A stretch of DNA of 44,977 bases from positions 1 to 44,977 of the forward strand of contig WQSP01000003.1 of NCBI GenBank assembly GCA_009787795.1. Reading direction: 5' to 3'. A program made the position numbers and the translations under genes. Numbering within the stretch: position 1 is the stretch's first letter; every line of letters starts with the position of its first letter. Shown in pieces: positions 24,198 to 41,534 of this stretch. The notes under the pieces were generated by a model. That model ran no database searches. It saw only the letters and a list, made by a program, of their open reading frames with translations, and was not told the origin of the DNA. This stretch comes from Treponema sp. (GTDB lineage: Bacteria > Spirochaetota > Spirochaetia > Treponematales > Breznakiellaceae).

Positions 24198-24683
24198 ATG
24201 TCAGATTCGGCAGAAATGCTTGAGCTTATGGAAGAAGCGCCCGAAGACGAAAATTGCGAAAAATTCCTTGTTTTTTCCATAATGGGCAAATTGTACAGTT
24301 TCCCGTCCCGTCTTATAGGGGAAATAGCGCTCTTTGACACAGTTTATCCTTTGCCCCTTTTGCCTCCTTATGTGCTTGGCGTTGTAAACAGGTATTCCGT
24401 TCCCTATGCGTTATTCGACATCGGCATCCTGTTTTACCAAACGCCGTGTCCCCGCAAAAAGATAATCATTTTTAAGGATGAAATTGACAGAATCGCAATA
24501 TTGATAGACGACATTTCCGGTATTGCCGAAAAAAGGCCGCATGACATAACTATAATGGAAAGAAACGCCGACAATTTTGAATTGACAGATTCTGTTGTCG
24601 CATCTTTTGTCTGGAACGAAGAAAATGTTTTTGTGCTGGACATTCATCGCATTTTGGGAAAAGTTACGCAGGAAATATCATAA
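24198..24683 (+). CDS. cheW: CheW-like chemotaxis coupling protein
   Basis: FLVFSIMGKLYSFPSRLIGEIALF...PLLPPYVLGVVNRYSVPYALFDIGILF...DRIAILIDDISGIAE. Confidence 0.85.
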   Translation: MSDSAEMLELMEEAPEDENCEKFLVFSIMGKLYSFPSRLIGEIALFDTVYPLPLLPPYVLGVVNRYSVPYALFDIGILFYQTPCPRKKIIIFKDEIDRIAILIDDISGIAEKRPHDITIMERNADNFELTDSVVASFVWNEENVFVLDIHRILGKVTQEIS

Positions 24684-25111
24684 TGAGAGTTTTTATTTGT
24701 TCTTACAGAAGTTTTTCTCTTGCAATACCGATTGATTGCGTATCGTCGATTTTTTTGCACCGCGACAATTCAAACGAAAAAATTCATTATGATCATGAAA
24801 AACGAAACACCTATATTTCCCTTTCAAATCTTTTCTGCTGCAACGATTTGTCAATACATCACGGAATCATTCTTAAAGGCCAAAACCCCGACTCTGACCA
24901 AATCGAAGACAGAATGATTCTTTTGTCAACGGAAATTGAAAGGGAAAAGGACATTCCGGCGGATAAATTTTTTCCTGTTCCGAAAAGTCTTGGCGTTTTT
25001 CAATTTTCTTCCGTCTTTTCGGGAATGTTTTACAGTATCGGCGCGGGAAAATTGATTCTCCTGCTTAATCCTGAACAGTTGGTTCAAAACATAAAAAGGG
25101 AAATTTTATGA
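24683..25111 (+). CDS. Second, divergent CheW-like protein
   Basis: MRVFICSYRSFSLAIPIDCVSSIF...YISLSNLF; position between cheW and cheB; start/stop overlaps with both neighbours. Confidence 0.6.
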   Translation: MRVFICSYRSFSLAIPIDCVSSIFLHRDNSNEKIHYDHEKRNTYISLSNLFCCNDLSIHHGIILKGQNPDSDQIEDRMILLSTEIEREKDIPADKFFPVPKSLGVFQFSSVFSGMFYSIGAGKLILLLNPEQLVQNIKREIL

Positions 25112-26115
25112 TTAAAACACTAATCGTGGACGATAGTCCTCTTGTTCGCTCGATTCTAAGGGATTTTCTTGAGAGCGAAGGATCTTTTGAAATTGCCGAC
25201 GAAGCGGAAAACGGACGGGATGCCGTCGAAAAGGCAAAACAGCACAATCCCGATCTTGTCACCATGGATATCGAAATGCCCGTGATGAACGGACTTGATT
25301 CCATCGTGGAGATAAGAAAGTTCAGTTCCTGCGGAATAGTTGTAATCAGCACCCACGATACCGCAAAGATGGCTTATGACGCAACTGTCAAAGGCGCGCA
25401 TGAATTTTTTGCAAAGGATATTTTCACTTCACAGATGACAGACAGGCAAAGAAGCGGGATTTTCAATACGTTAAAACAAATCATAAACATAAAAAACAAG
25501 GCTGCCTCGCATCATGAAGCGATAAAACAGACAATACAAACGCCGCGAAAAATAAATTGCGTTGTAATAGCTTCGTCAACGGGAGGTCCAATGGCTCTTT
25601 GTCAGTTGGCTTCCGGTCTTTCGGCAAAATTTCCGGTTCCCATTTTGCTTGTTCAGCATAACACGTCGGGTTTTGACAGGGGATTTGTCCAGTGGCTTGA
25701 CGGATATTCGCAGTTAAAAATCCAACTTGCACAAGAAGGAATTTTTCCTTCCAAGGGAAACGTATATGTCGCTCCAACCGACAAACACCTGACAATCGGA
25801 GCTGGCGGAATTGCGTTTGAAAACAGCGAACCTGTGAACAATCAAAAACCGTCCGCCGATCTTTTGTTCAAAAGCGCCGCTGCGCAATACGGAAATTCGC
25901 TTGTCAGCGTGGTTCTTACGGGTATGGGCGAAGACGGAGCGCAGGGCACGCGCATTGTAAAAGAGGCGGGCGGAATTACAATTGCCCAGGATGAAGCGTC
26001 TTCCATGATATACGGAATGCCTCAAGCGGCAGTTGAAACAGGATGCGTGGACATGATTTTGCCGTTAAATGAAATTTCAAACAAACTGTTGGAGCTTACG
26101 GGAGGAGAATCCTGA
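25108..26115 (+). CDS. cheB: CheB protein-glutamate methylesterase (REC + methylesterase)
   Basis: MIKTLIVDDSPLVRSILRDFL, DLVTMDIEMPVMNGLD; catalytic IASSTGGP, VQHN, LTGMGEDGAQG. Confidence 0.95.
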   Translation: MIKTLIVDDSPLVRSILRDFLESEGSFEIADEAENGRDAVEKAKQHNPDLVTMDIEMPVMNGLDSIVEIRKFSSCGIVVISTHDTAKMAYDATVKGAHEFFAKDIFTSQMTDRQRSGIFNTLKQIINIKNKAASHHEAIKQTIQTPRKINCVVIASSTGGPMALCQLASGLSAKFPVPILLVQHNTSGFDRGFVQWLDGYSQLKIQLAQEGIFPSKGNVYVAPTDKHLTIGAGGIAFENSEPVNNQKPSADLLFKSAAAQYGNSLVSVVLTGMGEDGAQGTRIVKEAGGITIAQDEASSMIYGMPQAAVETGCVDMILPLNEISNKLLELTGGES

Positions 26116-26117
26116 CA

Positions 26118-27608
26118 ATGTCCAACGGCAAAAACGAGCTTGGGAATATTGCGGAAATTCCATCCGATGTTCCCGCAGAAGTGTTATCCGACGCCGCTTT
26201 GCTGTTTTTGTATTACAGAATCGAACATATCCTTGGAATCAAATCGGGATACGAAGCTTTGAGAAATTTGAACAATTACCTGGAAGAAACATGCAAATCT
26301 TCTTTTGTGGAAAATCCCGCCGCATATGAATATTTGCTGACATCGCGCGAACAGATATTCGAAATTTCCAATTTTTTGACCGTAAACGAAACTTATTTTT
26401 TCCGTGAAAGTTCCCAATTTGAATTGTTGGCGCAGCTTTTGCCGGAACTGTCCAAATTGGGACGCCCCGTTCAAATATGCTCCGCTGCCGTATCCACAGG
26501 CTGCGAAGCGTACAGTATCGCCATGCTCCTGGATTATTATGCAAGAAACGGGCTTGATTTTGATTTTGCAGTTGACGCTTTTGACGTAAACTCAAACGCA
26601 ATAGAAATTGCAAAAAACGCCCGTTATACGTCAAACACCCTTCGCGCAGACGGCTCTTCATTCAGGCATATAATGGATTCCTATCTTATTTTCGAAGGAA
26701 ACGAACATATCGTTACGCAAAATATTAGAAGAAAGGTGAGATTTTTTCCCCATAACATCATGCGCGGACTTGACAAGCAATACGATATTATTTTTTTCAG
26801 GAACTCTCTTATTTATTTTTCTTCCAAAAACAGGCTTTCTGTCATAAACAATCTTGCAGAATCCCTTATGCCGTCAGGGCTTTTGTTTTTGGGCGCATCC
26901 GAAACTTCTTCCGTAAAACACCCTCTTCTTGCAAACAGGTTTTCCCGTGATGTTTTTTATTTTCAAAAAATCAATCCTTCCGATTCGCAGGAAAACATTA
27001 TTTTAAAAAGCCCGGTTGCGCACAAGAAAAAAAATTCGTTGCTTCTTCCACTGAATGCGGAAAGGCATCATCGCAAATTATTGCCAAAACACAATGAGAT
27101 AACGGTCAAATGCGAAGAAATTTGCGAAATATTAAAAACCGACGAAGGCAAACCCAATTCGGTTGAAGTTTTGAATTCTTTGGGCACCAGGGATTTATCG
27201 CAGTTTTCGGGCGGACGCATCTGCGCTTGCGCGATTCATCTGCTTAACATCAGGGATTTTAACAATGCGTCAAAAATTATAGAATATCTGGAAAAAAACA
27301 ATTCGGGAGCCTTTACAAGATTTCTGCGCGGAGAAATCTTGTTTTTGCTCGGCAATGCGGAAGATGCCGAAAGTTCCTACCATGAGGCTGCAATAAAAGA
27401 CAAATATTTTTGGCCTGCATATTACAGAATTGCAATTCTTTCTTCCGAGGGAAATCAGACAAGATTTGAATACAAGGTAAAAAAAACAATTGAGAGCATA
27501 GAGCTTTGTCAAAGTCTTGAGCCGGAATCAAAATTGAATTACGAATGTTTCTTGGGAGGTTTTTCTCCCGACTATTTCAGAAGAATTTTGGAGAAAAAGC
27601 TTGTATAA
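26118..27608 (+). CDS. cheR: CheR-type MCP methyltransferase with C-terminal TPR-like extension
   Basis: LTVNETYFFRESSQFELL, ICSAAVSTGCEAYSIAMLL, FDVNSNAIEIAKNARY, DIIFFRNSLIYFS; C-terminal TPR-like helices. Confidence 0.88.
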   Translation: MSNGKNELGNIAEIPSDVPAEVLSDAALLFLYYRIEHILGIKSGYEALRNLNNYLEETCKSSFVENPAAYEYLLTSREQIFEISNFLTVNETYFFRESSQFELLAQLLPELSKLGRPVQICSAAVSTGCEAYSIAMLLDYYARNGLDFDFAVDAFDVNSNAIEIAKNARYTSNTLRADGSSFRHIMDSYLIFEGNEHIVTQNIRRKVRFFPHNIMRGLDKQYDIIFFRNSLIYFSSKNRLSVINNLAESLMPSGLLFLGASETSSVKHPLLANRFSRDVFYFQKINPSDSQENIILKSPVAHKKKNSLLLPLNAERHHRKLLPKHNEITVKCEEICEILKTDEGKPNSVEVLNSLGTRDLSQFSGGRICACAIHLLNIRDFNNASKIIEYLEKNNSGAFTRFLRGEILFLLGNAEDAESSYHEAAIKDKYFWPAYYRIAILSSEGNQTRFEYKVKKTIESIELCQSLEPESKLNYECFLGGFSPDYFRRILEKKLV

Positions 27609-27620
27609 GAGAGGCGACAT

Positions 27621-28823
27621 ATGGAGAGTTTTTTAGGCAATGTTTCCCGGTTTTTCAACAATATGGGAATTTCTTCCAAACTTGCGGTAATTTCATTTCT
27701 GTTTTTATTGCTTCTTTCCGTTAATATTTGGTTTTTCCTTGTTGGCGGCAACATGGCGCTTTTGGTTGTCTGTGTCATTGCGGTGTTTTTTGGAATCCTG
27801 ATTTCCGTTTTAACTTCGTTGAATTTGAAAAAATCAAAAAAAAACATGCTTGGCATTTTTGAGAAATTGTATTATTACGATCTTGCGGTAAACATTGATA
27901 CGCTTTCTACGGATGAGTTCGGTCATTTTATGATAGAATTGAATGAATTCATCCAAAAACTCAACTCTACATTTTCTTCTTTTAACGAAAGCGCCAACAT
28001 GGTAACAACCGCAATAACCGAAATTACGTCCAATACGCTGGAAATAACCGCAACGGCAAACGAACAATCGGCAAGCGTATCCGAAATTGTAAGCACAATG
28101 GAAAACAACAAGACGCTTTCCTCGCAGGCATCGGAAAAAACAACCGAAGTTGCAGAGCTTGCGGCGCAAACAATGGAACTTAGCAAAAGAGGCGCCGATC
28201 TCCGCGATTATAACGAAGGCATGATGCTTGACATAAGAAATCAAAACGCCAAAACCATCGAAATAATAAAAAATCTTGCCGAGATGCTTTCAAGAATCGA
28301 CGAATCCATAGCCCTTATTGACACAATCGCGGATCATACAAAATTGATAGCATTTAACGCCGCTTTGGAAGCGTCTTCTTCAGGCGAAGCCGGCGCGAGA
28401 TTCTCTGTTGTAGCGGGAGAAATCAGGCGTTTTGCGGACAATGTTGTCGAATCCGCTTCCGAAATAAAAGAACGGATTCAGGAAGTAAACGAGGCTGCGC
28501 AAACGCTGTTAACCGAAGCAAACAGCGGAACTCATACCATAGATTCCGGTTACAACAAAATGGTCGAGCAGAAAAAGGTTTTTGAACATATTGTCGAAGC
28601 GTCCGAGAATGTTGCCATAAGGTCTGCGCAAATTTCAAACCTCAGCAAACAGCAGGAATACGCTTCCGCCCAGGTTTTTTCCGCGTTAAAGGAAATATCG
28701 ACAGGCGTAAACCAGTTTGTAAGCGCAACGGCCTTAACTTCAAAAACAACGGAAAAACTCAAGAAAATGGCGGAAGAGTTCAATGACACTCTTGGACAGT
28801 ATCATATAACGGACAGGGGATAA
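27621..28823 (+). CDS. Methyl-accepting chemotaxis-like protein with two N-terminal TM helices and no periplasmic sensor domain
   Basis: TM1/TM2 at LAVISFLFLLLLSVNIWFFLVGGNMALLVVCVIAVFFGILISV; signalling tip DTIADHTKLIAFNAALEASSSGEAGARFSVVAGEIRRFAD. Confidence 0.85.
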   Translation: MESFLGNVSRFFNNMGISSKLAVISFLFLLLLSVNIWFFLVGGNMALLVVCVIAVFFGILISVLTSLNLKKSKKNMLGIFEKLYYYDLAVNIDTLSTDEFGHFMIELNEFIQKLNSTFSSFNESANMVTTAITEITSNTLEITATANEQSASVSEIVSTMENNKTLSSQASEKTTEVAELAAQTMELSKRGADLRDYNEGMMLDIRNQNAKTIEIIKNLAEMLSRIDESIALIDTIADHTKLIAFNAALEASSSGEAGARFSVVAGEIRRFADNVVESASEIKERIQEVNEAAQTLLTEANSGTHTIDSGYNKMVEQKKVFEHIVEASENVAIRSAQISNLSKQQEYASAQVFSALKEISTGVNQFVSATALTSKTTEKLKKMAEEFNDTLGQYHITDRG

Positions 28824-28825
28824 TT

Positions 28826-30358
28826 ATGACTGAAAACGAAATTCGCCAATTGATAAAAATTGACGAATTTAACGGAGAAAAGATAATTTGCAAAATCCGC
28901 ATGGTTCTTGCAATTATATTCCTGGCAAGCGTGCCTTTAATCTCGTTTTCCAGAGTTATGAACGGAGAAAGCCATTTTCCGCCTCAGGCCTATTTTTGCT
29001 GCTGTTTGTTTTTTGTTTATTCAATTTTCATCCATTTTTACCTTTCCAAAAAAACTTATGTCCATTCCTCATTTAAATACATATGCGTTATAATTGACAT
29101 GACAATTCATTCTGCAAGTATCTGGATTGGCTGCACATATCCCCTGATTGCGCCCGCAATTTCATATCTTTCCACATGGGCGCTTTTTTTCCTTGTTTTG
29201 ATAATGGTTGGCGCATTCAGGTACAGCGTAAGATGCGCGTATTTTTCGGGCGTTTTTGCGGGTTTATGCTACTTGTCTGTTGTTATCATAAACGAAAAGC
29301 ATTTGGATTTGCCTTACTTTTTCATTTTGGAAAACGAAACCATGAACGTGCGGTTTCCCGTCTTTAACGAAACATTTCGCGTAATGGCAATGGTCGTAAC
29401 GGGCGCAATTACCGGTTTTGCCTGCAAAAGGCACTTTTCCCTTTTTAACAACATGATAAACACGCAAATCTCGGCAACCGAAGCCGCTTCCAGAACGGTG
29501 GAACAGACAAGAAACATGGCAAAAACAATTCAAAAATCCACCGATGAAATATTTCTTTCATCTAAAGAAATATTTTCCACCGCGAACAGTCAGGCTGCAA
29601 GCATTCAGGAAATCGAGGCTACAATAGGCGAAAATACGGGGATCGCGGGAGACATAGCGGAAAAAACTTCCAGCGTCGCTTCCATTGTGTCAAAAATGGA
29701 AAATGATGTCATTCACGGTTTTACCGTTCTTGGACGCAATGTGGATCAGCTTGAAGACATAAAAATGAAAAATGACGGACTGATTTCGGGAATTGTGTCG
29801 CTTGGAAACAAGATTTCAAAAATTCGCGATATTGTAAAAAACATCAATACAATTACGGATCAAACCAAAGTGATTGCGTTTAACGCGGCTTTGGAAGCGG
29901 CAAGCGCGGGAGACAAGGGAAAACGTTTTTCTGTTGTTGCAAGCGAGGTAAACCGTCTTGCAGACGATATTTCTTCGCTTACAAAACAGATACGCGAAAA
30001 TGTCGAGGAAATTCAAGGTTCGTCGTCATCCCTGATTGTTGCAAGCGAGGAATCGGCGGAAAAAATAACTGAAGGAAACAACCTTATCAGGGAACTGGAA
30101 GAAATATTCACAGAGATAAGAAGCGGAGCCGAAATAACGGCAAACCGGGCGCAAACCATAACGATATCAACCCAAAAACAGCAAAAATCGTCGGAACAAA
30201 TCAACATTGCGATAGCCGACATTTCAAAAGGTTTGACCAATTTTATCCAATCAACAAGAATTGCAACAGGCTCTGCGCAGGATCTTGTGCAATTGACCGG
30301 GGAATTGGGCGAATTGCTGACAGATAAGGATGAAACCAAAAATGAAGGCGGCGTTTAA
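28826..30358 (+). CDS. Methyl-accepting chemotaxis-like protein with multi-pass (about 6 TM) N-terminal domain
   Basis: Several hydrophobic segments in the first ~210 aa; NTITDQTKVIAFNAALEAASAGDKGKRFSVVASEVNRLADD. Confidence 0.87.
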   Translation: MTENEIRQLIKIDEFNGEKIICKIRMVLAIIFLASVPLISFSRVMNGESHFPPQAYFCCCLFFVYSIFIHFYLSKKTYVHSSFKYICVIIDMTIHSASIWIGCTYPLIAPAISYLSTWALFFLVLIMVGAFRYSVRCAYFSGVFAGLCYLSVVIINEKHLDLPYFFILENETMNVRFPVFNETFRVMAMVVTGAITGFACKRHFSLFNNMINTQISATEAASRTVEQTRNMAKTIQKSTDEIFLSSKEIFSTANSQAASIQEIEATIGENTGIAGDIAEKTSSVASIVSKMENDVIHGFTVLGRNVDQLEDIKMKNDGLISGIVSLGNKISKIRDIVKNINTITDQTKVIAFNAALEAASAGDKGKRFSVVASEVNRLADDISSLTKQIRENVEEIQGSSSSLIVASEESAEKITEGNNLIRELEEIFTEIRSGAEITANRAQTITISTQKQQKSSEQINIAIADISKGLTNFIQSTRIATGSAQDLVQLTGELGELLTDKDETKNEGGV

Positions 30359-30370
30359 AACGAAAAAATT

Positions 30371-32533
30371 ATGGCAATAGACAAAGAAAAATATATTAAG
30401 AAATATATTGACGAAGGACTTGACAACACAGCCCTGGTCGAATCTCTTGTCTTTGACATTAAAGACGGCGTATCGGTAGAGGACGATCTTGCCACCCTGC
30501 TTCGCGCGCTTCATACGCTTAAAGGTTCATCCCGCATGCTTGAGTTCAGGCGAATCGAAGAATTAAGTCACGCTCTTGAAAGCGTTTTTGGCTCTCTCAG
30601 GGAACAGCGCATTGGAATGTCCGAAAACGCGGTCAAACTGGTTTTATCGTCTTTGGATTTGCTGAAAAAGGGATTTGCCGCAATACGGCAGGAAAAAGAA
30701 GACGCAATTGACATAAACGATCATGTAAAAAACCTTACGCTTCTTGCCGCAAACGACGATTTTGAAATTCCGGACAACGATAAGACAAATACGCAGCAAG
30801 AAAGCGGCGAAGAGACAAAAAAACGCAAAGATTCAAAATCGGAAACAATCCGTTTGTCACTCGAAAAAATTGACGGCATTATCAAAAGTATCGCGTCTTT
30901 GCAGGCTTTGGAAATATCGGCAAAAAGCCTGTCTCAAAGCGGCGCCGAACTTTCCAAACAAATAAAAGAATTTTACAAGTCCATAAAAGATTTGACAAAA
31001 CACGATTTTGCCGTTACTTCCAATTACAGAAAACTTGAACGTCTTTGCGAACGGCTCAATTCGTCGTTGAAAAACTATTCCATTGACGCGGGTACAAGCA
31101 TAAGGGGAGCGCATGACAGCGTAATATCCCTTCGCACTCTTCCAATGTCCGTGATTTTTGACAGTTACCCGCGCTATGTTTTCGAACTGTCCGAAGAATT
31201 GGGAAAAAAGGTGCATCTTTCGATTGAAGGCAACGAAAACGAAATAGACAAAAACATAATAGAAGCAATGTCGGACGTTTTTTTGCATATGGTCAGAAAT
31301 GCCGTGGATCACGGTATTGAAACCCCGGAAGAAAGAAAGTCGTGCGGAAAAAACGAAACGGGGAAGCTTTCAATTGTCTGCTCAAGAGAGAGCGGCAGCA
31401 TGAAAATTTTCATTTCAGATGACGGACGCGGAATTGATGTTGAAAGAATCAGAAAAAAAGCGGTGAAAGACGGGTATGTTTCCCAGGGAGCCGCCGATCT
31501 TCTGTCAAAGGAAGACCTTACCAATTTTATTTTCCAAAGCGGTTTTTCAACTTCGGGAAACGTAAGCAATGTTTCCGGCAGAGGCGTTGGAATGGATGTT
31601 GTGCGCGAAACTGTCGAATCCCTTAAGGGAAGCATTGTGGTGGAAAGTTATTTTATGGAAGGCACAACATTTACAATAACCGTTCCGCTCTCCATTGCCG
31701 CCTTAACGGGATTCCCCGTAGAATGCGGAGGGTTGAAATTCATAATTCCCTCGAATTTTGTCGACAACGTTTTGCTTCTTAACCGCGAAAATATCATAAC
31801 CGTGGTGGACAGACCGGAAATAAGGTACAATGACAGAATAATAAAACTGTTTTTCCTGAATCAGGTGTTAAACATAAAAACGGATGCGATTCAATTCAAT
31901 GATATTTTTTTTGTTGCAATTATCAGGTCTTATGACGATATTGCCGCAATTGCGGTTGACAATATCGACAGCATGAGATCCGTCATATTGAAAAACATGC
32001 CCGCCTTTATGGAAAGCATGCCCGTTTTTTCCGGTATTGTTCTTAACGAAGATTACGAAATGGCGAGCGTTCTTCATATTCCCACTGTCTTAAAAATGGC
32101 AAAACGCATAAAATCCATCGAAATAAAAAAACGAAGCGCAGAATTCGAAAAACAGAAAAAATCGATACTTGTAGTCGACGATTCTCTCCCTACAAGGGAA
32201 ATAGAAAGAGAAATATTGATGTCGGAAGGTTTTATTGTCGACACCGCAGAAGACGGCTCGCAGGGATTAAAAGCCGCAAAGCAAAAACATTATGACCTTA
32301 TTTGCACCGACCTTAACATGCCTGTTATGGACGGCTTTATGTTTATAGAAAATTTAAAAAAGAACGATTCGCTTTCCGGGATTCCCGTTATTGTAATTTC
32401 ATCCAACGCGAACGAAGAAGACAAGGCAAAAGCGTACAAACTGGGCGCTTCCCGTTATATCTTGAAGAATTCGTTTAACAATCAGAATCTCCTTGAAACG
32501 GTAAACGAGTTAATCGGAGAAAAAAATGCCTGA
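30371..32533 (+). CDS. cheA: CheA histidine kinase fused to C-terminal receiver domain
   Basis: HPt LLRALHTLKGSSRMLEF; N box HMVRNAVDHGIETPEER; DDGRGID; GRGVGMDVV; CheW-like regulatory region; C-terminal REC ILVVDDSLPTREIE...DLICTDLNMPVMDG. Confidence 0.94.
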   Translation: MAIDKEKYIKKYIDEGLDNTALVESLVFDIKDGVSVEDDLATLLRALHTLKGSSRMLEFRRIEELSHALESVFGSLREQRIGMSENAVKLVLSSLDLLKKGFAAIRQEKEDAIDINDHVKNLTLLAANDDFEIPDNDKTNTQQESGEETKKRKDSKSETIRLSLEKIDGIIKSIASLQALEISAKSLSQSGAELSKQIKEFYKSIKDLTKHDFAVTSNYRKLERLCERLNSSLKNYSIDAGTSIRGAHDSVISLRTLPMSVIFDSYPRYVFELSEELGKKVHLSIEGNENEIDKNIIEAMSDVFLHMVRNAVDHGIETPEERKSCGKNETGKLSIVCSRESGSMKIFISDDGRGIDVERIRKKAVKDGYVSQGAADLLSKEDLTNFIFQSGFSTSGNVSNVSGRGVGMDVVRETVESLKGSIVVESYFMEGTTFTITVPLSIAALTGFPVECGGLKFIIPSNFVDNVLLLNRENIITVVDRPEIRYNDRIIKLFFLNQVLNIKTDAIQFNDIFFVAIIRSYDDIAAIAVDNIDSMRSVILKNMPAFMESMPVFSGIVLNEDYEMASVLHIPTVLKMAKRIKSIEIKKRSAEFEKQKKSILVVDDSLPTREIEREILMSEGFIVDTAEDGSQGLKAAKQKHYDLICTDLNMPVMDGFMFIENLKKNDSLSGIPVIVISSNANEEDKAKAYKLGASRYILKNSFNNQNLLETVNELIGEKNA

Positions 32534-34427
32534 CATGCAAAAAAGAATTTTAATATTGGAAGATTCCGATATTTTTTCCGATATGCTGTTCGAAGCTTTT
32601 GGCACTTCCGGTTTCTTATTGGAAAGGGCCGTTAACGGTTTTGAAGGAATAAAAAAAGTCTATTCGTTTTTGCCGCATTTGATAATAACCGACATTGAAA
32701 TGCCCCTGTTCAAGGGATACCAGGTTACGCGCCTTTTAAAGTCGCGCAAGAACACAAAAAACATTCCTGTTGTCATGTTTACGTCTTTGGAAGAAACAAA
32801 AGACAAATTCTGGGGAGCCCAGGCGGGAGCCGATTATTATATCGAAAAAACTCCCGACAATATTGAACCTCTTGTAAGGGAAGTGACAAAATTACTGTCT
32901 TCCAAACAGGATATTGATTTTGGCGCGATAGAAAAAGAAAGCAAAAAAATAAACAACGATTCCATCATAGAAATTACAAACAATCTTTTGGACAACAAAC
33001 TTTTCCAGACAACCATTGTCGGTTTGCTTGCCGAGTTGTCGGGAGAAGCGCATTCTTTGGATACTGTCGTTCATGGAATATTCGATTTATTGAAAAATTC
33101 ATGCGAAGCGGAAATTGCAATCATGATGATTCGCTCAGGCAACAGTTTTTTGCATGTTTATTCTTCCAATTACTCGGGATTTGCCAAAGAACAATTTGAA
33201 AATTTTTCCGGTATTTGCTTTTCCGATTTTGGCAATCTTTTCCCCGATTTTGGGCATTTGTCGAAATCTTCCAAACATTTTTTAAAGGAAGGAACCAATA
33301 CAAACAGCATAACATCTTATGTACGCATTCCGCTTAAAATATCGGGAGAAATATTCGCTTCTCTTCACATTGCAAATACAATCAACGATTACTTTTCTCC
33401 TTCCATTATGGAAAACCTGAATGTTTTTGCAGCCTCCGCATCTCCTGTTGTTTCAAACGCGCTTACCATGCACGAAATGACCGTTCTGCAAAAAAATACG
33501 CGCATGGCGTTTGCGCGTTATGTTCCCGCCGACGTCATTGACGAACTGATAAACGAAACGACAAAAAAAGCGCAAAAAAGCGAAAACAGATACGTCTCTG
33601 TCCTGTTCTGCGACATAAGAAATTTTACCAATATTGCGGAAATGTCGGAAGCGCAAAATGTTGTCGATTTTTTAAATACTTATTTTGCAAAAATGGGAAC
33701 GGAAATAATTTCGGAAAACGGACACATTGACAAGTTTATAGGAGACGCGATAATGGCTGTTTTCGGCGCGTTTCATACGACGGAGAACTCGCCTTTAAAC
33801 GCAATAAGGGCGGCAGTAAAAATGCTTGCCGCGCTTGAAATGATAAATTCTTCGTCTTCTTCAAAACTGGGAGAGGATAAAATAGGAATCGGCATCGGCA
33901 TCAATTGCGGCGAATGCATTATCGGCAATATCGGTTTTAAGAACAAAATGGATTTTACGCTGATTGGCGACACTGTAAACATTGCGTCAAGACTTGAAGG
34001 ACTTACAAAAATATACAGGCATCCGCTAATTGTTTCAGAATCCGTTTATGAAGCGGTCAGGGAAAATTTTCTGTTCAGGAAAATTGACAACGTGCGCGTT
34101 AAGGGAAAGGAAAAACCAATCGGCATCTATGCCGTCTATTCGGGATTCTACGGCACAGAGGGAAAAAGATTAAGATCGGGGGGCACCGCCGACATCGTTT
34201 CGGTTCCGTCCCTTTTGATAAACCGCGAAACTCTTGCCAATTACAATAAGGGATTGCAGGTTTTTTACATGCGCGAATGGAAACTTGCGCAGGAATATTT
34301 TATAAAGTCGCTTGAATTCGACAATGAGGATTTTCTTTCCAAAACGTATCTTGAACGCGCAATTGAATATGAAAAATCTCCGCCCGACGAAGACTGGGAC
34401 GGAATAATCACAATAAAAAGAAAATAA
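32526..34427 (+). CDS. Response regulator with GAF-like domain and class III adenylate/guanylate cyclase catalytic domain
   Basis: REC RILILEDSDIF...LIITDIEMPLFKGYQ; cyclase VSVLFCDIRNFTNIAE, GHIDKFIGDAIMAVFG, GIGINCGECIIGNIG, DFTLIGDTVNIASRLEG. Confidence 0.93.
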   Translation: MPDMQKRILILEDSDIFSDMLFEAFGTSGFLLERAVNGFEGIKKVYSFLPHLIITDIEMPLFKGYQVTRLLKSRKNTKNIPVVMFTSLEETKDKFWGAQAGADYYIEKTPDNIEPLVREVTKLLSSKQDIDFGAIEKESKKINNDSIIEITNNLLDNKLFQTTIVGLLAELSGEAHSLDTVVHGIFDLLKNSCEAEIAIMMIRSGNSFLHVYSSNYSGFAKEQFENFSGICFSDFGNLFPDFGHLSKSSKHFLKEGTNTNSITSYVRIPLKISGEIFASLHIANTINDYFSPSIMENLNVFAASASPVVSNALTMHEMTVLQKNTRMAFARYVPADVIDELINETTKKAQKSENRYVSVLFCDIRNFTNIAEMSEAQNVVDFLNTYFAKMGTEIISENGHIDKFIGDAIMAVFGAFHTTENSPLNAIRAAVKMLAALEMINSSSSSKLGEDKIGIGIGINCGECIIGNIGFKNKMDFTLIGDTVNIASRLEGLTKIYRHPLIVSESVYEAVRENFLFRKIDNVRVKGKEKPIGIYAVYSGFYGTEGKRLRSGGTADIVSVPSLLINRETLANYNKGLQVFYMREWKLAQEYFIKSLEFDNEDFLSKTYLERAIEYEKSPPDEDWDGIITIKRK

Positions 34428-34439
34428 AAGAGGTAAGAC

Positions 34440-35954
34440 ATGAAATTGGAAGAAATCAACGAACGAATAAAAAAAGACGAGTATCAGGGCGAATTGTTAA
34501 TAAATAAAATTCGTTTTTGCCTTGGCATAATTTTTGTTGCAAGCCTTTTTCTTCTTTCCCTGTTAAGAAATATTGAAGGTCTGCCGCATTACCCTTTTCG
34601 CACATTTATATTTACATCCTGTTTTTTACTCTACTCTGTCGTCGTTTATTTTTACATTAAAAACAACAGGGTTCTTGACAAGTATTTCAAATATATTCTT
34701 GTTACGATCGATTCTTTGCTTATAAGCGCGGCAATTTGGGCGGGATGCACCTACCCCGAACTTTCTCCTCCAATAGTTTTTCTTTCCATTCAGGCGCTTT
34801 TTTACATGGTGCTCATAATGGCGGGGTCGTTCAGATACAGCGTTTCCTGCGCGTTTTATTCGGGATTTTTTTCCGGTTTTTGCTATCTGATTGTCGTTTA
34901 TGCAAACGGAAAATATCTCGATTTGCCGTATTTTTTCCACTTTGAGGGCAGCGTGATAAATGTAAATTTTCCCCTTTACAACGAAGCTTTTCGCGTAATT
35001 GCGATGATTGTTATGGGGCTTGTTTCGGGAATAGCAAGCAAACGTCATTTCCTTCTTTTTAAAAACATGATTGAATCCCAGGCGGATGCCGCATTTGCAG
35101 CTTCCAAAACGGTCGAGCAGACGAAAACAATGGCAAAGGTCATAAAAAAATCGACAGACGAAATATTTTTATCGTCAAAGGACATTTTTTCAACAGCCAA
35201 CAATCAGGCTGCAAGCATTCAGGAAATAGAAAGCACCATAAGCGAAAACACAAAGATCGCGGGAGAGATTCAGGACAAGACGACAAGCGTTGCGAACATT
35301 TCTTCCAAAATGGAAAATGACGTAATACACGGCTTTTCCGTTTTGGGACACAACGTCGAACAATTAATAGACATTAAAAAGAAAAACGACGGCGTTATTG
35401 CAGGCATCATAAGCCTTGGAAACAAAATTTTAAAAATACGCGACATAGTGAAAAACATTAACACCATAACGGATCAGACAAAAGTTATCGCGTTTAATGC
35501 GGCACTGGAAGCCGCAAGCGCAGGAGACAAGGGAAAACGTTTTTCTGTCGTGGCAAGCGAAGTAAACAGGCTTGCGGACGATATTTCCGTTCTTACAAAA
35601 CAGATAAGGGAAAACGTGGAAGAGATACAAAATTCTTCTTCGTCATTAATCATTTCCAGCGAAGAAAGCGCGGATAAAATAACGGAAGGCAATCATCTGA
35701 TAAAGGAACTTGAAGACATATTCCGCGAGATCAGATCGGGAGCCGAGATAACATCGAATCAGGCGCAGACAATTTCCGTTTTTTCCCACAAGCAGCTAAA
35801 GTCGTCCGAACATATCAATATTGCAATTTCAGACATCTCCAAAGGTTTGTTCAGTTTTATCCAATCTACAAAAGTGGCAACGTCTTCGGCTGAAGGGCTT
35901 ACGGAAATGATAAAGGAGCTTGATACCATTCTGACTGGACAAAACGCCAAATAA
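34440..35954 (+). CDS. Methyl-accepting chemotaxis-like protein, paralog of 28826-30358
   Basis: Colinear multi-pass N-terminus and NTITDQTKVIAFNAALEAASAGDKGKRFSVVASEVNRLADDIS. Confidence 0.88.
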   Translation: MKLEEINERIKKDEYQGELLINKIRFCLGIIFVASLFLLSLLRNIEGLPHYPFRTFIFTSCFLLYSVVVYFYIKNNRVLDKYFKYILVTIDSLLISAAIWAGCTYPELSPPIVFLSIQALFYMVLIMAGSFRYSVSCAFYSGFFSGFCYLIVVYANGKYLDLPYFFHFEGSVINVNFPLYNEAFRVIAMIVMGLVSGIASKRHFLLFKNMIESQADAAFAASKTVEQTKTMAKVIKKSTDEIFLSSKDIFSTANNQAASIQEIESTISENTKIAGEIQDKTTSVANISSKMENDVIHGFSVLGHNVEQLIDIKKKNDGVIAGIISLGNKILKIRDIVKNINTITDQTKVIAFNAALEAASAGDKGKRFSVVASEVNRLADDISVLTKQIRENVEEIQNSSSSLIISSEESADKITEGNHLIKELEDIFREIRSGAEITSNQAQTISVFSHKQLKSSEHINIAISDISKGLFSFIQSTKVATSSAEGLTEMIKELDTILTGQNAK

Positions 35955-35962
35955 GGAATAAA

Positions 35963-38617
35963 ATGACAATCATGCGCCTTTACCCGATCAGATTTGCTGC
36001 CGTATTTTTTTTGTTCTTCTCATGCTTTTTTCTGTTTGCCCGCGATGTCAGAATTACGGTTATCGACTCCGATTTGAATCTTCCGCTGGAAGGCGCAACG
36101 GTAAGAACCAGAGACGGAATCGAATATACATGCGATGCAAACGGAAACGTTACAATACAGGCTCCCGAAGACAGGCAGATAATTGTACAAGCCGCTTATC
36201 CGGGTTATGAAGCGGGAATTATATCAATTCCTGTTACAGGCAATCATTTTACAATACAGCTTCGTCTGTCGGGAGTTATGCAGGCAAGAGAGCTTGTAAT
36301 AGAAGCGGAAAGACCCGGGCAAAACGAAACCAGAACAGGGCGCAGTATCGCGGTAAGTTCGCGCGACATATCCCAAACGGCGGAAATCGGCATAATCGAA
36401 GATGTTATGAGCACCATTTCACTTCTTCCGGGCGTAAGCTATTCGGGTTTTCTGGACGCGCAACCAAGCATTCGCGGAGGACATCCGGGAGACATGAGCG
36501 CGTCGTTAAACGGTTTTTATATAAACAATCCGTTTTTTTGGGGTGGCACTTTTTCAATTTTTGATCCGCGAATGGTACAGCACGCGCAATTGTCTCACGG
36601 CGTTTTTTCATCACGCTATGGACATACAATTTCGGGGTTACTCGAAATTACGACAAAAAACCCCTCTCCCACACAAACGCAGTTTGAATTAAGCATGAAT
36701 ACAAGCGCCGCCAACTTTAACATATCCGTTCCGTTTGCAGGAAAGGGAGGGATATTGGTAATGGGCAGGATCACATATTACGATCCTGTTTTGGCTCTTG
36801 CGGGCGAATTGTCACCCTTAATTCCCGAGCTTGAACTTGTTTCTTCGTTTGAGCCCGTTCCGTACATAAGAACCGCAACATTAAACGGCAATTACAGATT
36901 TACCGACAAACTGGAACTTAACGCAACAGGATTTTTCGGCATGGACGGCGTTGGCGTAAAATTCAACAATGTCAGTACCGTTAATGAATTTCTTTCAAGC
37001 AATACGTCAATAGATTTTTTGTTTACAAATTATCAGGCTTTCTTCACTTCTTCCCTTTCATGGAATCCGAGCGCAAATACGCTTTTGAAATTCATGGCGG
37101 GAACGGGTTATGAAGAACAGGTAAATTACGGCAACATCAATTATGACATAAACAGAAGTTTTTCCGATACATTCAAAACCACTTACCCTGCATACTTTTC
37201 GCTTTTTCAGAATATCCAGGGAGCCGATTACAATTTTAAGGATTCAGGTCTTATCGATCAAAGCGAATCAAATTTGAACGTTCAGGGAAGGCTTGATTTT
37301 GACTGGGAAATTTCCAAACATGTTCTTTTGTCGGCGGGAGCGCAGACAATGTACAATCATTTTAACGCTTCCGGCATACAGAGCATGACAATAGAAAGGG
37401 CTTTTAACGGAAGCAACGGCATTACGGATCCTGCAATGAGGGAACAAATAGAAGCGCAAATTACCGGTTATTTTTCGCCGTATCCTGTGCCGCCTGCGTT
37501 ATATGATTTTTTGATAGTTGCATTTCCTGTCGGATATCCTCCCAATCCCAGCAACAATTTGCTTTCGACATCGGGATTCATCCTTGGAGAATTCAGCATC
37601 GGAAACAGGTTTAATGCGGAGCTTGGAATAAGAATCGATCATTTCATGTTATTCGGCAAAAACGATTTTACGGTGCAAAGCGATCCTGTTTTCAATCCGC
37701 GGTTGAATCTTGAATTCAATCTTTACAGCGGTTCGGGATTTTTCAGGAAAATCGATCTTGCTCTGGGTACGGGCATTTTTTCTTCCATAAACAGCAATGT
37801 TTTTTCTGCGGAGGAACAGTACAATATAACAAAATTCAATCCAAACCGTTCGTGGACTTCCATCTTTGGAATTAAATTCGAATTCCCGCAGTCCATTACC
37901 CTTAATGTCGAAGGTTATTACAAACATATATACGATCGAATGTATATCGTAATGAATACGGCAACCGACGATTACAACACCTCTTATGACATCTCGCCGC
38001 ACTTCGACGGGGAAGGAACGGTTTGGGGCATTGATGTAATGATTCAAAAACTTCAATCGCGTTATTTTGACGGATGGCTTTCGTATTCCTTCAGTTATGC
38101 AAAATACAGGGATCCGCAGGGAGGGAATCAGGGTATCGGCGGAGGAAACCGCGGAAACGACTGGTATTTTCCGACATTCCACAGATTCCATACGCTAAAC
38201 CTTGTAATGAATTACAAGCCTGTCCAAAGCATTAACATCTATACGCGCTTTGGATTGGCATCGGGAGTTCCGTTAAGAAGAAGGTCCGAAGAAGGTCCTG
38301 TAAGCCTGCCTGTCTATCTTTATGAAAACGAAATTTTTATAGAAAAGTTTTACTGGCGTTCTTCTTATGACGATTCAAACCGCACAACTCCTTCCCTTAA
38401 TCTTGACATCAAGTTTTCCTATTTTGGAACCAACAGAAAGGGAAGATCAAGATATGAATTTTATTTTGCCGTGGAAAACGTGCTTGGGTTATTGTACAGC
38501 GCTCAGGGCAACACGAGCTTTAACCAATACACAGGCGAAATGGATACAGGCAGTTTTGCCGCAACTTTTGACATGCCGATTCCAATTCCGTCTTTCGGTT
38601 TCAGAATCAGTTATTAA
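35963..38617 (+). CDS. TonB-dependent outer-membrane receptor with N-terminal carboxypeptidase-regulatory-like domain
   Basis: Signal peptide; VRITVIDSDLNLPLEGATVRTRDG...; plug-like IIEDVMSTISLLPGVSYSGFLDAQPSIRGGHPGDMSASLNGFYINNPFF...GHTISGLLEITTKNPS; barrel with C-terminal aromatic ...GFRISY. Confidence 0.88.
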   Translation: MTIMRLYPIRFAAVFFLFFSCFFLFARDVRITVIDSDLNLPLEGATVRTRDGIEYTCDANGNVTIQAPEDRQIIVQAAYPGYEAGIISIPVTGNHFTIQLRLSGVMQARELVIEAERPGQNETRTGRSIAVSSRDISQTAEIGIIEDVMSTISLLPGVSYSGFLDAQPSIRGGHPGDMSASLNGFYINNPFFWGGTFSIFDPRMVQHAQLSHGVFSSRYGHTISGLLEITTKNPSPTQTQFELSMNTSAANFNISVPFAGKGGILVMGRITYYDPVLALAGELSPLIPELELVSSFEPVPYIRTATLNGNYRFTDKLELNATGFFGMDGVGVKFNNVSTVNEFLSSNTSIDFLFTNYQAFFTSSLSWNPSANTLLKFMAGTGYEEQVNYGNINYDINRSFSDTFKTTYPAYFSLFQNIQGADYNFKDSGLIDQSESNLNVQGRLDFDWEISKHVLLSAGAQTMYNHFNASGIQSMTIERAFNGSNGITDPAMREQIEAQITGYFSPYPVPPALYDFLIVAFPVGYPPNPSNNLLSTSGFILGEFSIGNRFNAELGIRIDHFMLFGKNDFTVQSDPVFNPRLNLEFNLYSGSGFFRKIDLALGTGIFSSINSNVFSAEEQYNITKFNPNRSWTSIFGIKFEFPQSITLNVEGYYKHIYDRMYIVMNTATDDYNTSYDISPHFDGEGTVWGIDVMIQKLQSRYFDGWLSYSFSYAKYRDPQGGNQGIGGGNRGNDWYFPTFHRFHTLNLVMNYKPVQSINIYTRFGLASGVPLRRRSEEGPVSLPVYLYENEIFIEKFYWRSSYDDSNRTTPSLNLDIKFSYFGTNRKGRSRYEFYFAVENVLGLLYSAQGNTSFNQYTGEMDTGSFAATFDMPIPIPSFGFRISY

Positions 38618-38632
38618 CGGGGTGTTTGAACT

Positions 38633-39454
38633 ATGAAAAAAGCGATTTGCATTTTGTCCGTAATGTTTTTTCTGAACAGTTGTCTTGGACTTATGGACGG
38701 AGCGGGAAGCATTCTTGACGGATCCCGTTTTGCCGAAAAAACAATTTTTTCCGCAAGCAATTATATTAATGACGCCGAAATGCAAATCCTGGTCGTAGAA
38801 AACAAAACATCGGAAAAATCAATAATCATTTCCATTGCGAATTATCCGATGATGCGCATTCGCGCCACTTTTCCGGATGAAAACGGCAATTTCATGTTTA
38901 CTTCGCTTGAATATTTGTCGGGAAACACACACGGCTGGAATGAATTTTCATTGCAGCTTTTGGGCGGCGGAAAACTTGCAATAAACGACAGTTCTTTTGA
39001 TTTTGACATAACGGAAGAAATCGAGGGTATTCAGATAACACAGGGACGCATTCATCGCTATGACACAAGAATTACGGGCGACGAAGCCGTTACGGCGCTC
39101 AGAAACCGTTTTGAGCGCGTATTGGCCCTTACAGAATGGATGTTAACTGTCGAGGGCGCTCCAAAAAATCAATCCTTAAAGGAATTTGAAAAACACTGGA
39201 AACCCCTGCTTGTCCCCGAGGCTGTCACGTCAAGAAACAGACCGGAAGGTTGGCGTCAGGAAGGCGATGTATTTATCCGCGCAGAAGACATTCGCTGGAA
39301 TACAAGTTTTACCGAGCGCGTTTTCCCGCAGGAACTTTGGCTTGTAAGAAACACTGGAACCCTGTTAAGGGATTGGGAAGAAGCAATCTCACTTATTTAC
39401 ATGCGGTACGAATGGAAAAATATTTTGGAAATTTTTACAAAGAGAGGTAATTAA
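38633..39454 (+). CDS. Hypothetical lipoprotein between receptor and ExbB
   Basis: MKKAICILSVMFFLNSCLG lipobox; no other family recognised. Confidence 0.65.
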   Translation: MKKAICILSVMFFLNSCLGLMDGAGSILDGSRFAEKTIFSASNYINDAEMQILVVENKTSEKSIIISIANYPMMRIRATFPDENGNFMFTSLEYLSGNTHGWNEFSLQLLGGGKLAINDSSFDFDITEEIEGIQITQGRIHRYDTRITGDEAVTALRNRFERVLALTEWMLTVEGAPKNQSLKEFEKHWKPLLVPEAVTSRNRPEGWRQEGDVFIRAEDIRWNTSFTERVFPQELWLVRNTGTLLRDWEEAISLIYMRYEWKNILEIFTKRGN

Positions 39455-40128
39455 TGGACAGCGCATCTTTTTCACTTTTGGAATTGTTTAAACTTGGGGG
39501 CGTTGTCATGTGGCCCCTTCTTGCATTCTCCATTTCTGTTGTTGCAATTACAATAGAACGCCTGTTTTATTTTCTCAATCATAATCTTGATGTGGAAGAA
39601 ATTTCGCAAAAAACAATGGATTTTGTCAGGGAAAAGAATTTTTCGGGCGCAGACGAATATTTATCCGGGCTTAAGGGAAAAAACATGGCCGCCCGCGTTC
39701 TTCTTTCGCTTGTTCTTCATGCAAAACCGGAAACCCAATTTAACGAGCGGCGCGCCGAAAAAGCCGCCGAAACCGAAGCTTCCAACTGCATCAATTCATT
39801 GGAAAACGGATTTAATTTTTTAACCGCTCTTGGCTCTTTGTCTCCGCTAACGGGCTTTTTGGGAACGGTAACGGGCATGATAGGCGCTTTCAGATCAATT
39901 GCGGAAGCCACTGAAGTAAACGCCCAAATTGTCGCAAACGGCATTTACGAAGCGTTAATCACAACCGTATTCGGCCTTATTATCGCAATAATCGCGATGA
40001 TCTCCCATTCGGTTTTTTCCTACATCGTTGACAGATTTGCCGCAAAAGTTGAAGGCGCGTGTACACAACTCATAGAAGAGCTGAGTATTGAATCGGAAAA
40101 TCATCATGCAAAAAAAGCGCACGGCTGA
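39454..40128 (+). CDS. exbB: ExbB/TolQ/MotA-family proton channel protein
   Basis: GGVVMWPLLAFSISVVAITIERLFYF; LTALGSLSPLTGFLGTVTGMIGAFRSIAEATEVNAQIVANGIYEALITTVFGLIIAI. Confidence 0.92.
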   Translation: MDSASFSLLELFKLGGVVMWPLLAFSISVVAITIERLFYFLNHNLDVEEISQKTMDFVREKNFSGADEYLSGLKGKNMAARVLLSLVLHAKPETQFNERRAEKAAETEASNCINSLENGFNFLTALGSLSPLTGFLGTVTGMIGAFRSIAEATEVNAQIVANGIYEALITTVFGLIIAIIAMISHSVFSYIVDRFAAKVEGACTQLIEELSIESENHHAKKAHG

Positions 40129-40139
40129 ATCGGGGTCGT

Positions 40140-40547
40140 ATGAAAATATCACGGCGTAAAAAATACGGTTTTCTTGAAACATGCGCGGCAAGCGATCTTG
40201 CTTTCCTTTTGATTATTTATTTTCTTGTCATCGCGGGTTTTAACATCAATAAAGGCTATATAATGAATCTTCCCGCAAAAGATTCAACGCGAATGATAAT
40301 GCGCGACGATCTTCTTCGTTTTGAAATGACAGAAACAGGCGAAATTGTTCATTCGGGTGAAATCATCCCGATTAACCGCGCAAGGTCCCTAATTGCCTCA
40401 TCGCAAAGGGAAAATCCTAATCTTTCCGTAATAATTTCAATTGACAGCAATGCCGAATGGCAAAGGGTTGTTCATTTTGTGGAGATTGCCCAGGATTTGC
40501 AAGTCGATTCGTTTTCTTTTTCCATGAAAAAGGAGGATGAACTGTGA
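40140..40547 (+). CDS. exbD: ExbD/TolR-family protein (first)
   Basis: Single N-terminal TM with conserved Asp (AASDLAFLLIIYFLVIAGF). Confidence 0.85.
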   Translation: MKISRRKKYGFLETCAASDLAFLLIIYFLVIAGFNINKGYIMNLPAKDSTRMIMRDDLLRFEMTETGEIVHSGEIIPINRARSLIASSQRENPNLSVIISIDSNAEWQRVVHFVEIAQDLQVDSFSFSMKKEDEL

Positions 40548-40945
40548 AGCTCAGGAGAAAAAGCCAATTTGTAAATGTTCCGCTTTTTTCGACATCGGAC
40601 ATCGCCTTTTTGCTTTTAATCTTCATAATGCTGGTTTCCCTTATCAATTACAGGGTGGAAGTGAAAATAGATTACCCCGAGGCGCAGTCGGCTTTGCGCG
40701 CAACTGCGGAAAAAAACCTTGAAGTGTGGGTACAAAAAGACGGAAACATTTTTCTTGACGGACTTGCATCCGACAGACTTGAATTTGAAAGAAAAATTCA
40801 AAATTTGTACATAACATCTCCTGACACAAGAGTTCACATTATCGCCGACAAGAACACTCCTTATATGCACATTAATTCAATATTGGAGATTATGCAGCTT
40901 CTTCAATACCGCGTTGTAAGTTTTGTGGTAAAAACCAATGAATGA
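40544..40945 (+). CDS. exbD: ExbD/TolR-family protein (second)
   Basis: GTG start overlapping preceding stop; VPLFSTSDIAFLLLIFIMLVSLIN with conserved Asp. Confidence 0.87.
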   Translation: MKLRRKSQFVNVPLFSTSDIAFLLLIFIMLVSLINYRVEVKIDYPEAQSALRATAEKNLEVWVQKDGNIFLDGLASDRLEFERKIQNLYITSPDTRVHIIADKNTPYMHINSILEIMQLLQYRVVSFVVKTNE

Positions 40946-41534
40946 AAAACAAAGACGACTTTTGATATTTTCTCTTGTGGCAATTGTGCATATTGCATTG
41001 ATTTTATTTCTTGCATTTGATATGGGAATTATACATCAGGAGCCGTCGGAGTATGCCAGGGTTATGAAAGTGACAGACCTCGCCGAACTCCCCCCCCCTC
41101 CTCCCCCTGCTCCGCCCGAGGAGGAAATTCCGCAAGTGGAAGACATTGTGGAAAACATGATAGAAAGCGATGTTCCCATTAAGCAGGAAGTTATCGCCGC
41201 AGGAACGCTGACAGTCGATTCGTTTGAAAATTATCTGCAAATCCATCAAGTGTCGGTTGCGCCTAATTTTGACACAAGTTTGATAGCCTCTTCCCTTGTT
41301 TATCCGCCCATAGCCCTTCGTTCCGGCATTGAAGGCAGGGTTTTTCTGGAATTGTTTGTCGATCGGACGGGAACCGTACAAAGGGTCACAATTCTTCGCG
41401 AAGATCCCGAAGGTCGCGGGTTCGGCGAAGCTGCCGTCCGCGCATTTTTGGGAAGAAAAGGTTCACCGGCTTATGCAAACGGAGAGCCCGTTTCGTGCAG
41501 GTACAGATATCCTGTGGCGTTTACGATAAGGTAA
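40938..41534 (+). CDS. tonB: TonB-family energy transducer
   Basis: N-terminal TM, ELPPPPPPAPPEEE proline-rich segment, C-terminal YPPIALRSGIEGRVFLELFVDRTGTVQRVTI. Confidence 0.9.
   Translation: MNEKQRRLLIFSLVAIVHIALILFLAFDMGIIHQEPSEYARVMKVTDLAELPPPPPPAPPEEEIPQVEDIVENMIESDVPIKQEVIAAGTLTVDSFENYLQIHQVSVAPNFDTSLIASSLVYPPIALRSGIEGRVFLELFVDRTGTVQRVTILREDPEGRGFGEAAVRAFLGRKGSPAYANGEPVSCRYRYPVAFTIR

Follow-up and report, generated by a model that had tools for sequence, protein, structure and literature searches.

A response regulator with a predicted adenylate cyclase output encoded directly beside cheA in a Treponema chemosensory cluster

The chemosensory cluster and its cyclase gene

The window analysed here is a stretch of 44,977 nucleotides from Treponema sp., which forms one contig (C3) of a 1.83-Mb metagenome-assembled genome (MAG) of 71% completeness (G000); among named genomes, those nearest to it are MAGs of Treponema and Spirochaetaceae, which their sample codes suggest to be termite-gut lineages. 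Fifteen same-strand genes, with gaps of no more than 15 bp, run from cheW (24198) to tonB (41534) in the order cheW, orf142, cheB, cheR, mcp, mcp, cheA-REC, REC-AC, mcp, TBDR-like, putative lipoprotein, ExbB, ExbD, ExbD and TonB (Table 1), and there is no cheY within this run. His48 of the Hpt domain, the N, G1 and G2 boxes and Asp647 of the C-terminal receiver are all intact in the CheA of the window, which by these motifs is kinase-competent. The extension of CheR looks TPR-like by eye and gives no Pfam TPR match. In chemoreceptors 2 and 3 the predicted transmembrane (TM) segments lie at the N-terminus and leave little periplasmic sequence, which suggests intramembrane or energy-type sensing. 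An ORF of the orf142 type is also kept between cheW and cheB in related clusters; it was considered as a divergent CheW, and this assignment was rejected as BLASTP gave no significant match to CheW. No Rfam match was found in the operon, and promoter- and terminator-like sites in it are only modestly above those in shuffled sequences.

Table 1. Coordinates of the features of the cluster in the window
Feature	Position	Strand	Basis or remark
cheW	24198..24683	+	Pfam CheW, 9.5e-12
orf142, conserved 142-aa ORF between cheW and cheB	24683..25111	+	No Pfam family
cheB (REC and methylesterase)	25108..26115	+	Pfam
cheR, about 230-aa C-terminal extension	26118..27608	+	Pfam
Chemoreceptor 1 (MCP signalling domain)	27621..28823	+	Pfam
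Chemoreceptor 2, several predicted TM segments	28826..30358	+	Pfam
cheA: Hpt, HATPase, CheW, C-terminal REC	30371..32533	+	Pfam
REC-GAF-class III cyclase-helical tail protein (REC-AC)	32526..34427	+	633 aa, open ORF
REC-AC receiver domain, residues 8-120	32547..32885	+	Pfam Response_reg, residues 8-110, E 2.7e-15
REC-AC phospho-Asp D56 codon	32691-32693	+	In receiver with E12, D13, T86, K108
REC-AC helical linker and GAF-like domain, residues about 157-315	32994..33470	+	AlphaFold2 secondary structure; GAF_2 in homologues
REC-AC long signalling helix, GAF to cyclase, residues 292-329	33399..33512	+	AlphaFold2 model
REC-AC class III cyclase catalytic domain	33582..34118	+	Pfam Guanylate_cyc, residues 353-531, E 2.7e-27; Foldseek; residue invariance
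REC-AC C-terminal TPR-like helical tail, residues 563-617	34212..34376	+	AlphaFold2; weak TPR matches in homologues
Chemoreceptor 3, several predicted TM segments	34440..35954	+	Pfam
TonB-dependent-receptor-like protein, 273-aa putative lipoprotein, ExbB, ExbD, ExbD, TonB	35963..41534	+	Same-strand run

The genes that follow chemoreceptor 3 form a TonB set, in which the receptor-like protein has a Plug match just under the Pfam cut-off. This set is found 3' of the cluster only in the genus of the window and only for the window-type cluster (system I), where the linkage is kept in several congeners. Because it is absent beside system II and beside the family- and order-level loci, the TonB set was rejected as a part of the ancestral system.

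The reading frames of cheA and REC-AC overlap by 8 bp (ATGCCTGA at 32526-32533), with the cheA TGA (32531-32533) lying within the first cyclase codons and GGAG immediately 5' of the REC-AC start; the overlap between the cyclase start and the cheA stop, read earlier from the letters, is thus borne out. The domain series proposed for the protein (REC, a GAF-like region, a class III cyclase and a C-terminal helical tail) likewise holds, with the quoted motifs in place. The Pfam E-values place the receiver and cyclase calls far beyond chance. REC-AC itself has no significant Pfam match to GAF, and GAF_2 was found in 5/20 homologues (best E-value 5.6e-4). In the AlphaFold2 model, a five-stranded receiver is followed by a helical linker, a GAF-type alpha/beta domain at residues about 178-290, a 38-residue helix, the cyclase and a tail of three helices, to which weak TPR-model matches were obtained in 13 of the 20 homologues. 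The model is a monomer with a mean pLDDT of 80.5 and a pTM of 0.46, a low value, so that it does not fix the inter-domain geometry. For the cyclase part, Foldseek retrieved CyaC of Spirulina and CyaB of Pseudomonas aeruginosa with TM scores, normalized by the target, of about 0.79-0.86 (0.83-0.85 for CyaC, 1wc1); the CyaB structure 3r5g is a close solved relative.

Catalytic residues and nucleotide specificity

The catalytic positions had been predicted to be intact, and all six are present in REC-AC: the metal-binding D363 and D407, the purine-contacting K403 and T478, and the transition-state residues N485 and R489. They are invariant in an alignment of 20 sequences (REC-AC and 19 relatives), and among the cheA-adjacent relatives the only change is between Thr and Ser at position 478. 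In the receiver, E12, D13, D56, T86 and K108 are all present in REC-AC, and these residues are kept in all 12 system-I sequences. One residue of the original prediction needed refinement: the 'Thr/Asp region' was placed at the right position, but the residue there is Thr (T478) rather than Asp, and the purine-selecting pair is therefore Lys403/Thr478. This Lys/Thr pair is the ATP-selecting type of class III cyclases, as in Spirulina CyaC, whereas in guanylyl cyclases Glu takes the place of this Lys.

REC-AC has the catalytic domain, the metal aspartates, the Asn/Arg pair and the Lys with Thr/Ser by which a class III cyclase of the adenylate, IIIb type is recognized, together with the acidic pair, phospho-Asp, Thr and Lys of a response-regulator receiver. 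On these sequence features, the catalytic competence of REC-AC is well supported, and it is very probably an adenylate cyclase that produces cAMP. The profile search alone cannot separate adenylate from guanylate cyclases, and the relatives of solved structure include a guanylyl cyclase, Cya2 (2w01), so a guanylate or dual-specificity enzyme with cGMP as its messenger was considered. Since Lys403/Thr478 is of the ATP-selecting type, and the Lys is constant in every cheA-linked relative examined, we regard a cGMP product as highly improbable.

Pairing with cheA and decay of the receiver among relatives

Relatives of REC-AC occur in 83 of the 294 genomes sampled from the order, representing 25 of 83 genera (E <= 1e-62), and nearly all of them span the receiver to the cyclase. 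Among the loci inspected, cheA lies immediately 5' of REC-AC essentially without exception: this holds for 19/19 loci of the same-genus and order-level set, for another 12/12 at the family and order level, and for L086-L099, L107 and L123 from Treponema and Spirochaetales, where L093, L095 and L096 are counted as cheA-adjacent although their CheA is kinase-less. At L107 (10001-12633, a Spirochaetales MAG) there are apparently two cyclase-like genes in tandem 3' of cheA. The distance matrices of CheA and REC-AC correlate with r = 0.98 over 31 loci, a value reached in 0 of 2000 permutations and to which shared descent contributes.

The source genome holds two diverged cheA/REC-AC pairs, that of the window and one on contig C29, which are about 50% identical. 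The second cluster (L071) reads cheW-cheB-cheR-mcp-mcp-cheA-REC-AC, is without TonB genes and has Asn at receiver position 13. Ten class III cyclases are encoded in the genome; the two cheA-linked ones are response regulators and the other eight are HAMP or CHASE2 proteins, so that only the two cheA-linked enzymes look able to accept phosphate from CheA. A third CheA-like match lies on contig C13, so that the genome probably also has flagellar components, which leaves room for cross-talk. The CheA of the window might accordingly serve mainly a flagellar CheY and CheB, with REC-AC as a minor branch. This arrangement seems distinctly unlikely, as the cluster lacks cheY, REC-AC is the gene retained directly beside cheA across the order, and the genome carries a second diverged pair on C29.

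The fate of the receiver differs between lineages. Every sequence in the clade of the window, and nearly every one in its family, has an intact phosphorylation site; another 15/15 loci at the family level retain both the receiver and the cyclase residues. In the window's clade, the mean identity is 75% for REC vs 73% for the cyclase; a receiver as conserved as the cyclase is expected if REC phosphorylation matters, and phosphorylation is probably still used in this clade. Within system II of the same genus, the phospho-Asp is lost in two members (replaced by Ala in L068 and by Ser in L072). A second Treponema genus, from rumen and gut, was reached via L093 (a match at 1e-70 in 42 of its 79 genomes), and here the receiver site is decayed in 30/30 loci: Lys is lost, and Asp is replaced by Asn in all but one. 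The six cyclase residues are kept in the same 30 loci, with Ser or Thr at 478, and the mean identity is 37% for REC vs 78% for the cyclase. The decayed receiver of the L093 protein is nevertheless still predicted by AlphaFold2 to adopt the receiver fold.

The CheA upstream of these 30 cyclases has decayed in part as well. About 17 lack the N, G1 and G2 boxes and 11-12 keep the kinase core, in a tally that leaves out one upstream ORF that was too short and one that was not resolved. While the CheA gene of L092 encodes all four domains (Hpt, HATPase, CheW and Response_reg), credible Pfam domains in those of L093, L095 and L096 are only CheW and Response_reg, with no Hpt or HATPase. The proteins encoded at these three loci (L093:8783-10333, L095:8798-10333 and L096:8518-10002) are CheA-derived, about 500-520 aa long, and lie directly 5' of a cyclase that is catalytically intact and has a decayed receiver. 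A large survey reports that every CheA homologue it covered has P1, P3, P4 and P5 as its core domains (PMC10782961), and CheA-derived proteins of the L093 type, being without the kinase, would fall outside that definition of CheA. The genomes with a kinase-less CheA also hold other CheA-like genes, so a kinase acting in trans is possible for these loci.

The loss of the receiver site beside an intact cyclase indicates that the chemoreceptor-cyclase unit can survive without this phosphorelay. With the cyclase as the constant output and phospho-control as a removable layer, docking or array contact becomes a serious rival to phosphotransfer, at least outside the family of the window: the REC-like domain would mainly dock the cyclase onto the CheA/CheW/receptor array, array contact or a GAF ligand would set its activity, and phosphorylation would be secondary or absent. 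The rumen and gut Treponema loci, with their preserved receiver fold, lost Asp and Lys, low REC identity, intact cyclase and, at L093, L095 and L096, a CheA reduced to CheW and REC, all argue for such docking. For the window itself we consider it rather unlikely, because the receiver site is intact in its clade and nearly all its family, and REC is as conserved there as the cyclase.

A proposed chemoreceptor-to-cAMP pathway

We return to phosphotransfer as the preferred reading for the window. The order of the genes, the preserved key residues of kinase, receiver and cyclase, the predicted fold and the evolutionary pairing with CheA make it likely that the cluster encodes a non-motor chemosensory pathway in which phosphorylated CheA phosphorylates REC and thereby changes cAMP synthesis. 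In this scheme, the membrane chemoreceptors and CheW would set the autophosphorylation of CheA, which would hand its phosphate to D56 of REC-AC, while the receivers of CheB and of CheA itself would compete for phosphate and so adapt or drain the signal. Phosphorylation would alter the geometry of the REC-GAF dimer, helix 292-329 would relay this change to the class III cyclase homodimer, and the conversion of ATP to cAMP would be raised or, with less likelihood, lowered. The transfer of phosphate from CheA to D56, the direction of its effect, the GAF ligand and the way in which cAMP is used further down (through cNMP-GGDEF and tandem cNMP proteins instead of a CRP) are the parts of the scheme that we infer.

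The original prediction is supported, with two corrections. That the output of CheA here is likely to be cAMP is favoured by the cheA overlap, the missing cheY and the recurrent adjacency, but the receivers of CheB and of the CheA C-terminus are also possible acceptors. Control of cAMP by REC agrees with the intact receiver in the window's clade; it is not general, as in relatives from one genus the phosphosite of REC is gone, in many cases along with the kinase of CheA, and it cannot be assumed for the whole family. Since the cyclase persists without the phosphosite in relatives, its true input may come from GAF or from direct contact with the array. Tentatively, and with somewhat less than even confidence, the conserved unit may consist of an adenylate cyclase and a chemoreceptor array that are physically coupled, with phosphotransfer as an ancestral layer that is still in place in the window and has been lost in at least one Treponema genus, a subset of which has a kinase-less CheW-REC scaffold CheA.

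A search for CRP-family regulators, proposed earlier as a check, returned no match to HTH_Crp (PF13545) in the 71%-complete MAG, and a classical cAMP-CRP output is thus not supported for this genome, although a CRP or other partner could be missing from it owing to its incompleteness. CRP-type HTH domains are patchy in the genus, with a match in 23 of 40 genomes, 13 of them above the cut-off. The cNMP-binding proteins of the source genome include two cNMP-GGDEF fusions, two tandem cNMP proteins, one cNMP-TPR protein and one single-domain protein of 216 aa; the two fusions are adjacent on contig C114 (L047:2449-4427, minus strand). The cNMP-GGDEF and tandem cNMP proteins, rather than CRP, appear to be the visible downstream candidates. 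As no HTH_Crp match was found and two such fusions are present, cAMP may feed into c-di-GMP, for which the fusions are a possible direct link.

Response-regulator outputs in chemosensory clusters, mononucleotidyl cyclases among them, were listed in a survey of CheR-TPR proteins, in which the CheR-TPR fusion is enriched in ACF-class systems and not required for them (PMC3447774). By gene content, the cluster of the window resembles ACF-class systems, being a che cluster that lacks a motor-type CheY and has a predicted non-motor output. The likeness, which is one of gene content, extends to CheA, CheW, CheB, CheR and MCP, a multidomain response regulator beside CheA and a mononucleotidyl cyclase output. 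The window-type cyclase differs in being a constant partner across a spirochaete order, and in the window's genus the TonB/ExbBD/TBDR set follows.

Three further systems are comparable. The first is the P. aeruginosa Pil-Chp (ChpA) system, a chemosensory system that raises cAMP via CyaB, whose catalytic domain is close to that of REC-AC. CyaB is a membrane cyclase without a receiver, whereas in the window the REC sits on the cyclase itself, making direct phosphotransfer possible. The second is CyaC of Spirulina and Anabaena, a receiver-linked class IIIb cyclase with the Lys/Thr pair, which resembles REC-AC in catalytic domain type and fold but takes its input from a conventional hybrid histidine kinase module within its own chain; the kinase in the window is a CheA with chemoreceptors, separate from the cyclase chain. 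The third is Wsp, a chemoreceptor cluster in which the CheA-type WspE phosphorylates the REC-diguanylate cyclase WspR. As proposed for the window, a CheA acts in Wsp on a REC-nucleotide cyclase, although the messenger of WspR is c-di-GMP and its output domain is GGDEF. Our literature search found work on ACF and Pil-Chp systems and no paper on a spirochaete CheA-cyclase, a weak sign of novelty as subscription journals were thinly covered.

The cluster offers a plausible chemoreceptor-to-cAMP route for spirochaetes within one assayable protein, and its linkage to the TonB, ExbBD and receptor genes in the genus of the window points to a possible co-regulation of cAMP with uptake across the outer membrane. 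The relatives, with receivers intact or decayed and CheA with or without its kinase, form a natural series for the question of whether an array can regulate an enzyme without phosphorylation. If the physically coupled unit is the conserved one, then in the genus with decayed receivers and kinase-less CheA proteins the array would control a cyclase with no CheA kinase at work, and chemosensory output of this kind would be new.
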